From Halorubrum halophilum (lineage in GTDB: Archaea > Halobacteriota > Halobacteria > Halobacteriales > Haloferacaceae): DNA of 47,747 nucleotides. The notes under the pieces were generated by a model that was not told the origin of the DNA, did no database searches, and saw only the letters and a list, made by a program, of their open reading frames with translations. The position numbers and the translations under genes are program-made. Positions 19,970-25,324 of the stretch are shown here, piece by piece (position 1 is the first letter of the stretch; the number at the start of each line of letters is the position of its first letter). The stretch spans positions 1 through 47,747 of the forward strand of contig NZ_BBJP01000034.1 of NCBI RefSeq assembly GCF_000739595.1. Direction: 5' to 3'.

Positions 19970-20359
19970 ATGCCTCGTGGGTTCGACAAGGAACGTACCA
20001 ACGTCCACAAACTCCAGTACCACTTCATCTGGTGCCCGAAGTACCGTAAATCGGTGCTTGAGGGAGAGGTACGTGATCGCCTCGAAGAACTCATCGAGGA
20101 CAAGGCCGACGAACTCAACCTCGAAATCTTGGAGTTGGCGGTTCGACCCGACCACGTACACTTGTTCATCACGGGCGACCCGACGCTCGCCCCAAACAAG
20201 ATAATGCAACAGGTCAAGGGCTATTCCTCGCGCCAGCTCCGTGACGAGTTTGATTTCGGCCTGCCGTCGCTGTGGACACGCTCGTACTTCGTCTCAAGTG
20301 CGGGCGACGTATCCAGCGAAGTCATCGAGGAGTACATCGACGCCCAAGCAGGTGAGTAG
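19970..20359 (+). CDS. tnpA: IS200/IS605 Y1 (HUH) transposase TnpA
   Basis: A 129-aa single-strand transposase. The HUH pair is H62-V-H64 in RPDHVHLF, the catalytic tyrosine is Y122 in EEYIDAQ and Q126 is the usual metal helper. The first strands (KLQYHFIWCPKYRK) are typical of the family. It cuts and rejoins the top strand at the element's hairpin ends, acting as a dimer. All catalytic residues are present, so it may be active. I start at the ATG at 19970 (MPRGFDK); an in-frame ATG at 19946 would add eight residues. The tnpB gene follows after a 2-nt gap. Confidence 0.95.
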   Translation: MPRGFDKERTNVHKLQYHFIWCPKYRKSVLEGEVRDRLEELIEDKADELNLEILELAVRPDHVHLFITGDPTLAPNKIMQQVKGYSSRQLRDEFDFGLPSLWTRSYFVSSAGDVSSEVIEEYIDAQAGE

Positions 20360-20361
20360 TC

Positions 20362-21525
20362 ATGCAACGGAGCGTCTCAACCACGGTGCGGGTCAAACTC
20401 CACTCGCTGACCAACAGGAAGGCTGACCTGCTCGCCCGTGAGTACGAGGCGTTCCAGACCGAGGTACACGGCGGAAACGCCGACCTGTACTCTGCGACCG
20501 ACCAGCAGGCGTCGAAAGTTCAGCGACAAAAAGACCCGAACCCCGACACCGAACAACCCGTCGTCCTCCGCAACGACGTGTTCGACGTGACCTGCGACGA
20601 GGATACCGTTCTCTCGTCGTGGTGGGTGAAAGTCCCCGTCTACGACCCCGAGCGGGGACAGGGCAACTCCATCTGGTGTCCCACCCACATCCCGAAAAAA
20701 GACGAACAACTTGTCCGTGAGGGCGACATTCGGGACAGCGAGCTGGTGCGTCGTGACGGTGACTGGTACGTCCACCTCGTCGTCAAACGGTCTGTGACCG
20801 TCCAAGACGAGTACGACGACGTGCTGGCTATCGACATGGGCGCACGCTGGGTCGCTACCTGTGCGTTCCTTTCCGACCGCAAAACCACGTTCTACGGCGA
20901 GGAAGTTCGTCGCATCCGCGAACACTACAAGCAACTGCGGAAGTCCATCGGGAAGGCGAAACCTCGACAGGGACAGCAGGTGGTCGAGCGGATCGGTGAC
21001 GCGGAAGCACGGAAGGTGGACGACCGCCTCCATAAGATTGCTCGTTCCGTCGTTGAAGATGCTGAAGAACGGAACGCGGTTATCGTCGTGGGCGATCTCG
21101 GTGGGATTCGCACGGACAACGACAAAGGGCGGTACGTCAACGACAAGACCCACAAGATGCCGTTTGCCCGCCTGCTGAACTACATCGAGTACAAGGCCCA
21201 CGACGCGGGCATCGACGTACAGTTAGTTGAGGAATACGACACATCGAAGACGTGTAACCGCTGTGCCTGCGAAGGTGTCCGTGAGACGCAGGGACGCTTC
21301 GAGTGTCCCGAATGTGGACTTGACGACAACGCAGACAAGAACGGTGCGCTGAACATCGGCAAACGAGCCTTGGGCAAGTTCTCGAAACCGCTGTCCGAGG
21401 CGGGGGCTGTACTGGCACAGCCCGAAACGCAGGTCATCGTCCCCTGTGACGACGAACCTGCGAACCTCCCGCTACGTGTGGATTCAACCCCCAGTGGGGG
21501 AACCCCACGGCTCATTCGTCTTTAG
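20362..21525 (+). CDS. tnpB: TnpB (IS605 OrfB) RuvC-like RNA-guided nuclease, catalytic Glu substituted
   Basis: A 387-aa TnpB, the transposon ancestor of Cas12. RuvC-I is intact (AIDMGARW, D158). RuvC-III is intact (DKNGALNIG, D325). A zinc finger is intact (C298, C301, C315, C318). At RuvC-II, where the family has E-D-L, the sequence is VVGDLGGIR with G244 replacing the catalytic glutamate. Active TnpB uses an RNA from the right end (omega/reRNA) to cut target DNA. Here catalysis may be lost or rely on a relocated acidic residue. Right-end spacing is also abnormal (see the cassette). N-terminal domain and length look normal; no frameshift. Confidence 0.93.
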   Translation: MQRSVSTTVRVKLHSLTNRKADLLAREYEAFQTEVHGGNADLYSATDQQASKVQRQKDPNPDTEQPVVLRNDVFDVTCDEDTVLSSWWVKVPVYDPERGQGNSIWCPTHIPKKDEQLVREGDIRDSELVRRDGDWYVHLVVKRSVTVQDEYDDVLAIDMGARWVATCAFLSDRKTTFYGEEVRRIREHYKQLRKSIGKAKPRQGQQVVERIGDAEARKVDDRLHKIARSVVEDAEERNAVIVVGDLGGIRTDNDKGRYVNDKTHKMPFARLLNYIEYKAHDAGIDVQLVEEYDTSKTCNRCACEGVRETQGRFECPECGLDDNADKNGALNIGKRALGKFSKPLSEAGAVLAQPETQVIVPCDDEPANLPLRVDSTPSGGTPRLIRL

Positions 21526-21530
21526 TTAAG
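21514..21530 (+). repeat. 17-bp inverted repeat, left arm, flanking the RHH cassette
   Basis: ATTCGTCTTTAGTTAAG spans the tnpB stop codon. Its perfect reverse complement lies at 22017-22033, immediately before the right-end hairpin. The 486 bp between the arms are AT-richer than the tnpB gene and carry the RHH gene. Confidence 0.85.
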
Positions 21531-21631
21531 GAATCGCAAGACAGCAGCACGATTGCTTCGCTGTGCAAGTAGCAGCTGAGATCTATTATGACAATCTTTT
21601 GATCTAAATTGGAATGAGCCGATAAGCTTAC

Positions 21632-21648
21632 CGTGCACCTAGTGCACG
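21632..21648. promoter_or_regulatory. Palindromic operator-like site upstream of the RHH gene
   Basis: CGTGCAC-CTA-GTGCACG has perfect 7-bp arms. It ends 23 nt before the RHH start codon, where it would cover the promoter of a leaderless transcript. An identical-arm copy follows the gene (21883-21899). RHH proteins bind such palindromes, so autorepression is likely (inferred). Confidence 0.65.
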
Positions 21649-21671
21649 TATTTTTGAGAACGTCTAAGATT

Positions 21672-21875
21672 ATGACTCGAACCAAAATGGGCGTCTCCGT
21701 CCGAACTGAACTCGTTGAAGAGCTCGATACACTCGTCGATGAGTGCTCAGATCTCGGAGCAAGCCGCTCCGAGATCGTTGAAGCGATCCTCGCAGTATAT
21801 TTGCAGAATGATGAAGAGAGAATAGAAAAAACCCGAGAGCTGGTTATCCGCAATAGGAAACGATCTAACTCGTAG
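21672..21875 (+). CDS. Ribbon-helix-helix (CopG/MetJ-type) DNA-binding protein
   Basis: A 67-aa basic protein. RTKMGVSVRTELVEELDTL gives the beta strand and first helix, and SRSEIVEAILAVYL the second helix of a ribbon-helix-helix dimer, the fold used by plasmid copy-control and antitoxin repressors. I chose the ATG at 21672; an upstream ATG at 21633 lies inside the palindrome and would make translation cross the operator. It is flanked by two 17-bp palindromes with identical arms and sits inside the 3' end of the IS element. No toxin partner gene is visible, so it is more likely an autoregulator or a relic of another element. Confidence 0.82.
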   Translation: MTRTKMGVSVRTELVEELDTLVDECSDLGASRSEIVEAILAVYLQNDEERIEKTRELVIRNRKRSNS

Positions 21876-21882
21876 AGAAGTC

Positions 21883-21899
21883 CGTGCACCAAGTGCACG
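21883..21899. promoter_or_regulatory. Palindromic site downstream of the RHH gene
   Basis: CGTGCAC-CAA-GTGCACG repeats the 7-bp arms of the upstream site and lies 8 nt after the RHH stop codon. It may be a second RHH binding site, or mark the end of a mini-element. Confidence 0.6.
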
Positions 21900-22016
21900 A
21901 ACTTCTTAGAGCGTTATTCGAAATCACAAATTGACTGTGTTCATATCGACACCGTCTTAGACGAATAGAAGACTACTCTCTGCCATCTGATCCCGTCGCT
22001 GTACCGCGATTTCGCT

Positions 22017-22055
22017 CTTAACTAAAGACGAATGCCCCACGGCTTTAGCCGTGGG
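22017..22055 (+). repeat. Inverted-repeat right arm plus IS right-end hairpin
   Basis: CTTAACTAAAGACGAAT (22017-22033) is the exact inverse of 21514-21530. It is followed by CCCACGGC-TTTA-GCCGTGGG (22036-22055) and GAGGATGTCAG. That hairpin has the same TTTA-loop layout as the remnant right end at 42619-42638 and is taken as the transposon right end. Confidence 0.78.
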
Positions 22056-22131
22056 AGGATGTCAGCGTAAGGAACGTTACAAAAACATCATACAGATTAT
22101 CATTAAGTCCGGTCCACCCCACGTCTCTCAT

Positions 22132-23557: not shown

Positions 23558-24574
23558 ATGCCACAACCAAGCCGACCACGAAAAGGCTCGCTGGGCTACG
23601 GCCCGCGTACCCGCGCAGACCGAGAGGTCCCGCGCATTCGATCGTGGCCCGACGACGACGGAGCCCCCGCACTGCAGGGGTTCGCCGGCTACAAGGCCGG
23701 AATGACGCACGTCGTTATGGTCAACGACGAGGCCAACTCGCCGCGTGAGGGGATGGAAACGTCCGTTCCCGTCACCGTCGTCGAGACGCCGCCGATGTAC
23801 GCGGTGGCCCTGCGTGCCTACGAACAGACGCCGTACGGAAAGAAGCCGGTCGAAGAGGTCTGGGCGACCGAGTTCCACGAGGAGCTCGACCGCGCGCTCG
23901 ACCTCCCGGCGGAAGACACCTTCGAGGAAGACGCCGACGAGCTGCGCGCGCTGCTCGACGAGGGCGCGGTCGACGACGTCCGCGTCATCACGCACACGGC
24001 TCCCTCGGAGCTCGCGAACGTACCCAAGAAGAAGCCCGACGTGATGGAGACCCGAGTCGGCGGCGGCTCCCTCGAGGAGCGCGTCGACTTCGGGCTCGAC
24101 CTCGTCGCTGAGGGCGGCGCCCACGAGTTCGGCGACGTCTTCCGCGCGGGGCAGTACACCGACGTGTCGGGCATCACGAAGGGGAAGGGGACACAGGGTC
24201 CCGTCAAGCGCTGGGGCGTCCAGAAGCGGAAGGGCAAACACGCCCGCCAGGGATGGCGGCGCCGGATCGGTAACCTCGGTCCGTGGAACCCCTCCCGCGT
24301 TCGCTCCACCGTTCCCCAGCAGGGGCAGACCGGCTACCACCAGCGCACCGAGCTCAACAAGCGCCTCATCGACTTCGGCGAGGGCGACGACGCCTCCGTC
24401 GACGGCGGCTTCGTCAACTACGGCGAGGTCGACGGCGACTACGCGCTCATCAAGGGCTCGCTGCCCGGTCCGGACAAGCGCCTGCTTCGGTTCCGCCCGG
24501 CCATCCGGCCGAACGACCAGCCGCGCCTCGATCCCGAGGTCCGGTACGTATCCACCGCATCCAACCAGGGATAA
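23558..24574 (+). CDS. rpl3: Large-subunit ribosomal protein L3 (uL3)
   Basis: A 338-aa uL3 with the archaeal N-terminus PRKGSLGYGPRTRA and the peptidyl-transferase-facing loop (RWGVQKRKGKHARQGWRRRIGNLGPWNP) that reaches into the catalytic centre. Two acidic surface insertions (for example EEDADELRALLDEG) are haloarchaeal adaptations. One of the first proteins to bind 23S rRNA. It begins 4 nt after the methyltransferase stop; L4 follows after 3 nt. Confidence 0.98.
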   Translation: MPQPSRPRKGSLGYGPRTRADREVPRIRSWPDDDGAPALQGFAGYKAGMTHVVMVNDEANSPREGMETSVPVTVVETPPMYAVALRAYEQTPYGKKPVEEVWATEFHEELDRALDLPAEDTFEEDADELRALLDEGAVDDVRVITHTAPSELANVPKKKPDVMETRVGGGSLEERVDFGLDLVAEGGAHEFGDVFRAGQYTDVSGITKGKGTQGPVKRWGVQKRKGKHARQGWRRRIGNLGPWNPSRVRSTVPQQGQTGYHQRTELNKRLIDFGEGDDASVDGGFVNYGEVDGDYALIKGSLPGPDKRLLRFRPAIRPNDQPRLDPEVRYVSTASNQG

Positions 24575-24577
24575 TCC

Positions 24578-25324
24578 ATGAACGCAACAGTACACGACCT
24601 GGACGGCGGGGACGCTGGCAGCATCGAGCTGCCGGCGATCTTCGAGACCGCGTTCCGACCGGACCTCATCGGTCGGGCGGTCTCCGCCGCACAGGCTAAC
24701 CGGAAACAGGCCTACGGTGCCGACGAGTTCGCCGGGCTGCGAACCCCCGCGGAGTCGTTCGGCTCCGGTCGCGGGCTCGCACACATCCCGCGCTCCGAGA
24801 ACGTCGCCCGCCGCGTCCCGAACGCCGTGTCGGGCCGCCCAGCGCACCCGCCGAAGGCCGAGAAGGACCAGACGAAGAGCCTCAACGACAAGGAACGACA
24901 GTTCGCGATCCGGTCGGCCATCGCGGCCACCACCGACGCCGAACTCGTCGCCGAACGCGGACACGCGTTCGACGAGGACCTCGACCTCCCGCTCGTCGTG
25001 AGCGACGAGTTCGAGGACCTCGAGAAGACCCAGGAGGCCCTGGGCGTGCTCGAATCCGTCGGCGCCGACGCCGACATCGAGCGCGCCGAGGAGGGTCGCT
25101 CCGTCCGAGCCGGCCGCGGGAAGACCCGCGGTCGCAAGTACAGCCAGCCGAAGTCCGTGCTCGTCGTCACCAGCGAGGAGCCGTCCCGCGCCGCTCGAAA
25201 CCTTTCGGGCGTCGACGTCGCGACCGCGCGAGAGGTCAACGCGGAAGACCTCGCGCCGGGCGCACACCCGGGTCGACTCACGCTGTGGACCGAGAGCGCC
25301 ATCGAGGAGGTGGCCGACCGATGA
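24578..25324 (+). CDS. rpl4: Large-subunit ribosomal protein L4 (uL4)
   Basis: A 248-aa uL4. The extended loop that lines the peptide exit tunnel is seen as GRGLAHIPRS...RRVPNAVSGRPAHPPK, and the globular part ends in KTRGRKYSQPKSVLVV, characteristic of the archaeal/eukaryotic version. Its last codons overlap the L23 start (ATGA), so translation of the two is coupled. Confidence 0.98.
   Translation: MNATVHDLDGGDAGSIELPAIFETAFRPDLIGRAVSAAQANRKQAYGADEFAGLRTPAESFGSGRGLAHIPRSENVARRVPNAVSGRPAHPPKAEKDQTKSLNDKERQFAIRSAIAATTDAELVAERGHAFDEDLDLPLVVSDEFEDLEKTQEALGVLESVGADADIERAEEGRSVRAGRGKTRGRKYSQPKSVLVVTSEEPSRAARNLSGVDVATAREVNAEDLAPGAHPGRLTLWTESAIEEVADR

Follow-up and report, generated by a model that had tools for sequence, protein, structure and literature searches.

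At positions 21513-22034 (plus strand) of the window, by which we mean the whole 47,747-nt stretch of Halorubrum halophilum DNA that was analysed, lies an ISH2-type non-autonomous element of 522 bp that holds an RHH gene and two copies of a palindrome. Its assignment to ISH2 follows from comparison with the pNRC100 copy of ISH2 (coordinates 70690-71220; PMC10264941), to which the element is 82.6% identical along its full 522 bp. When ISH2 copies are aligned their ends are sharp, and both are formed by an 18-bp terminal inverted repeat (TIR), CATTCGTCTTTAGTTAAG, which is identical in all copies and stands here at 21513-21530 on the plus strand and, inverted and exact, at 22017-22034 on the minus strand. 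Immediately outside, the target-site duplication CCCCACGGCT is present as a perfect 10-bp match at 21503-21512 and 22035-22044 (no strand assigned to either copy). The first-pass annotation had raised the possibility of a mini-element travelling together with its binding sites, with the palindromes marking its ends; the first part was essentially right, the element being the known MITE ISH2, but the real ends, defined by the TIR and the duplication, lie 119 and 135 bp further out. Two other identities were considered and discarded. The terminal palindrome ATTCGTCTTTAGTTAAC had been read as an IS605 right end with a TTAA duplication, wrongly, as it is the ISH2 TIR; the palindrome-associated PATE elements of Haloquadratum derive from IS605 and have no TIRs (PMC3119063).

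ISH2, a tiny element familiar for decades, carries an ORF for which no explanation had been given. The window element agrees with ISH2 of Halobacterium salinarum in its length (~520 bp for ISH2), in its terminal repeats, in the 10-bp target duplication and in the gene, and the same species provides its best plasmid matches; it has no transposase gene, and its one small ORF is the same as WP_000124630 of Halobacterium ISH2. In a search of the family, a unit of ~510 bp around the gene recurred at 91-99% identity at unrelated places in other genomes, where the copies have target duplications of their own, 9-12 bp long. A search of viral contigs found no relatives. According to the literature, ISH2 is a MITE without a transposase that is moved in trans by the ISH8 transposase and generates 10-bp target duplications (PMC10264941). 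Two intact ISH8-type elements of 1402-1403 bp are present in this genome, with TIRs near-identical to that of ISH2, and may act as its source of transposase.

The element has inserted into another mobile element of the IS200/IS605 type, which encodes TnpA (Y1; 19970-20359, plus strand; Pfam Y1_Tnp, E 9e-39, and relatives) and TnpB (20362-21525, plus strand). The last codons of tnpB read into the left end of ISH2, leaving the host protein with a C-terminus longer by 3 amino acids. The right end of the host, consisting of the hairpin CCCACGGCTTTAGCCGTGGG followed by AGGATGTCAG (22035-22065, plus strand), matches the uninterrupted relatives L191 and L192; the insertion divides this hairpin, so that the right copy of the target duplication lies inside its stem. 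The empty site matching the insertion is provided by L191, and the window flanks, once joined, give the uninterrupted right end found in Halorubrum ezzemoulense. In TnpB systems the guide RNA has its scaffold end in the right-end hairpin. Downstream, two long ORFs (23558-25324) resemble ribosomal proteins L3 and L4, from which it would follow that the nested elements adjoin a ribosomal protein operon. Nesting of another kind was seen in Salinigranum marinum (L010, ~1865-2915), where a ~1-kb insertion with transposase-like ORFs interrupts palindrome 2 (the one after the gene) in an ISH2 copy.

The RHH gene (21672-21875, plus strand) encodes 67 amino acids and is annotated as hypothetical in RefSeq. 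The evidence on it comes from family-level Pfam matches, an AlphaFold model and dN/dS. Pfam RHH_1 is matched by 7 of 11 family members (best E 8e-6); the window protein itself falls under the Pfam gathering score (RHH_3, E 0.02; RHH_1, E 0.07). The model has one or more N-terminal strands and helices at residues 12-27 and 32-44, with a mean pLDDT of 78. A Foldseek search of the monomer model against the PDB gave no useful match, and a search of the PDB by sequence was uninformative. Among ISH2 copies dN/dS is 0.12-0.33, and the gene is under purifying selection by this sequence-based measure. Two copies on plasmids of Halobacterium salinarum 63-R2 (L038 and L040) are annotated with a later start, giving ~62 codons as against 67 in NRC-1; conservation supports the longer, 67-codon form.

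The sequence CGTGCAC-N3-GTGCACG occurs exactly at 21632-21648 (CGTGCACCTAGTGCACG; hereafter palindrome 1, a candidate operator within the promoter region of the gene) and at 21883-21899 (CGTGCACCAAGTGCACG; palindrome 2, the proposed second operator), neither being assigned a strand. The geometry in the first-pass annotation, including these positions, is accurate: 67 codons stand between the two palindromes, 23 nt separate palindrome 1 from the ATG at 21672, and palindrome 2 begins at the 8th nucleotide past the TAG at 21873-21875, with 7 nt in between. The spacing TGCA-N5-TGCA within them resembles, we assume, that of the CopG operator. Beyond the core, the two have a common TTCTNAG flank in the same orientation, and both sit in a direct repeat ~45 bp long. 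Perfect 7-N3-7 dyads number 25 in the window, and only the pair starting at 21632 and 21883 has identical arms within a few hundred bases.

The same annotation had held that its idea would fail if the palindrome recurred at many unrelated places in the genome, and a genome search favours the idea: the 3.68 Mb contain just three exact matches, two of them in the window and one in a second ISH2 copy on contig C96, the other palindrome of which has one mismatch. The exact site is also uncommon in the family at large, with 67 occurrences in 167 genomes, compared with 3 for a reversed control pattern, and many of the 67 are paired at ~250-254 bp. Several of the solitary palindromes that were checked are remnants of the same elements, some lie in SMR-like repeats of 141 bp, and a few with GC loops look like chance occurrences. 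The 141-bp repeats, with ends CAGTRGTTGCTGA (L162-L165 and L176 (Halobellus salinus, G095); L167 and L168), have a single central GTGCAC-N3-GTGCAC without an RHH gene. Several resemble the SMR-A elements of Haloquadratum in lying within right-end palindromes of IS605, and loss of the gene between two sites could have given rise to these repeats. The TIRs do not vary among ten distinct ISH2 copies, and in the palindrome arms only 3 of 28 columns do, set against all six positions of the N3 loops and 48-58% of positions in the spacers adjoining the palindromes.

The arrangement extends well beyond ISH2. Sampling 392 genomes of the order turned up RHH relatives in 40, which represent 23 of 95 genera, with at most 11 in any one genome; in named species they occupy 68 loci. 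Nearly all intact relatives are flanked on both sides by the same two palindromes. In nearly all classes 22-24 nt separate the end of palindrome 1 from the ATG (19 nt in the two A2 cases), palindrome 2 starts from a few to 15 nt past the stop codon (30 nt in L157), and the centres of the two are 242-255 bp apart (242-243 or 250-255). The carrier elements differ in their ends. Class A comprises ISH2 and its variants, with the ends CATCCGTGTTCGGTTAAG and CATTCGTTCTAGTTTAA, duplications of 9-11 bp and ISH8-type affiliation (ISH8/IS4). Class B elements (~395-406 bp, usually with 5-9 bp duplications) carry the TIR GAGSGTGTCATAGAA, and have an autonomous partner with the same ends in ISH11, of the IS5 family. 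Class C elements (416-417 bp, 8-bp duplications) carry the TIR CTGTCSCGTTTCGAGTAT, which also bounds a transposon encoding an ISHth3-like IS4-family transposase. Three further end types are suggested, each from a single locus or a few loci (L099, L100, L157), and the module is probably joined to more than three types of transposon end.

Nucleotide similarity between the classes is limited to the module, at approximately element positions 100-405, and the outer flanks are unrelated; neither the ISH11 partners nor this genome's ISH8-type elements showed such palindromes. In the protein tree, sequences cluster by end type, with one locus, L013, placed beside the ISH11 class in spite of its ISH8-like ends, which indicates that ends and module have been exchanged, within the limited resolution that so few alignment columns allow. 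Taken together, the RHH gene and its two palindromes look like a self-contained module that has been joined to the ends of three or more unrelated transposons (ISH8/IS4, ISH11/IS5 and ISHth3-like/IS4), and as such would work independently of the transposase that moves it.

Operator and protein appear to change together. In class C, which is known from a handful of modules, both palindromes read GTTGCAG-N3-CTGCAAC instead of CGTGCAC-N3-GTGCACG, save that one of these modules, L152, has a hybrid half-site in its first palindrome. Residue 5 is Glu in all intact class C proteins and Lys in the other intact ones. The N-terminal strand of RHH proteins reads DNA, and residue 5 belongs to that strand. 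This joint switch of both sites is the strongest evidence at hand, and it favours recognition by the RHH protein of both palindromes, beyond the promoter site. Class B elements frequently show a change in one half-site of palindrome 1 (GTACAC) next to a perfect palindrome 2, which argues that the latter is not a weak relic. The initial proposal of paired operators for an RHH repressor thus gains comparative support, from the conserved geometry and from sites that change jointly with the protein.

We consider it probable that the explanation as a whole holds, namely that the gene is cargo of the ISH2 MITE, that the RHH protein binds both palindromes, and that gene and sites form a self-contained module common to several elements. 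By comparison among the copies, the 67-aa protein would bind both sites, probably as dimers or higher oligomers. Palindrome 1 occupies the stretch 24-40 nt ahead of the ATG. Archaeal promoter elements or the start site must fall there, and binding would accordingly block transcription of the RHH gene itself; autorepression by this route is likely, and no clear TATA box for the gene could be assigned from the sequence alone. Palindrome 2, a site of at least equal strength in the same orientation and at a near-constant distance, could add cooperative or looped repression, or could instead shield the element from transcription arriving from its 3' side. Looping, which the first-pass annotation had raised, is possible and fits spacings near 23 or 24 helical turns, although there are too few independent spacings for helical phasing to count as evidence.

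A role of the module in transposition is also possible, and would account for its occurrence with unrelated transposases. In this reading, the RHH protein on its two internal sites would bring the element ends together (synapsis) or limit transposition, whichever transposase is at work. So far the module has been found only in non-autonomous elements with several types of terminal repeat, its two sites stand about equally far in from the two ends of ISH2 (119 and 135 bp), palindrome 2 is conserved at least as well as the promoter site, and copies accumulate to as many as 11 per genome; against this, MITEs without any gene move well (several in PMC3119063), and the distances to the ends vary by class, being ~60-75 bp in class B. 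On balance, we regard this function as rather doubtful. A leftover autoregulated gene, carried by ISH2 without present function and with its two sites a relic of duplication, seems to us unlikely: ISH2 is a known element, and the ~45-bp direct repeat holding both sites could well stem from a duplication, but selection is purifying on the protein and acts on both sites, and the module persists in nearly a quarter of the genera sampled. Less probable again is that palindrome 1 alone is an operator and palindrome 2 an RNA hairpin, serving as a terminator or stability element directly past the stop codon. In ISH2 palindrome 2 does have longer arms, of 14 bp (21876-21906), in which the changes from copy to copy are compensatory, but the long stem is not kept in classes B and C, which do retain the 6-7 bp core that matches palindrome 1 exactly; both cores switch sequence jointly in class C, and a terminator needs no sequence in common with an upstream site. 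That the palindromes bind a transposase or host factor, with the RHH gene between them incidental, we consider very improbable, since, even if some elements do have internal transposase sites, the same palindromes recur in elements of unrelated transposases, were not seen in the autonomous partners examined, and change jointly with the RHH protein.

The autoregulated module with two operators, which we prefer, has partial counterparts among known systems. Mobile insertion cassettes are likewise bounded by the terminal repeats of an autonomous IS and, in the manner of a MITE, hold a passenger gene without encoding a transposase; here, in contrast, the passenger is a regulator with two sites of its own, combined with several kinds of ends. 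The RHH autorepressors of plasmids of the CopG/RepA type are similarly small and have a palindromic site before their own gene, but the present system differs in its second identical site after the gene, in having no co-regulated rep gene, and in being transposon-borne. HqIRS32 of Haloquadratum walsbyi is ISH2-type. Previous work has noted the ISH2 ORF together with homologous short ORFs of HqIRS33 and HqIRS34 (PMC3119063); the ISH2 ORF was described there as a non-transposase protein that is expressed in Halobacterium (PMC3119063, citing Klein 2007). In the searchable literature, which leaves most subscription journals and the ISfinder entries outside, we found no description of this ORF as an RHH gene with paired operators or of a module common to MITE families. 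The element is thus already known, and the module nature of the RHH gene and both palindromes appears to be new.

We further offer, as a tentative and somewhat speculative extension, that the module has spread between unrelated non-autonomous transposons by helping them, for example by organising their ends or copy number, and that its specificity has diversified along with the protein to avoid cross-regulation. The two classes of site, GTGCAC and GTTGCAG, would provide a natural pair of protein/operator specificities for the study of RHH recognition. If the proposed explanation is true, haloarchaeal MITEs carry a common control module and are more than passive parasites of a transposase.
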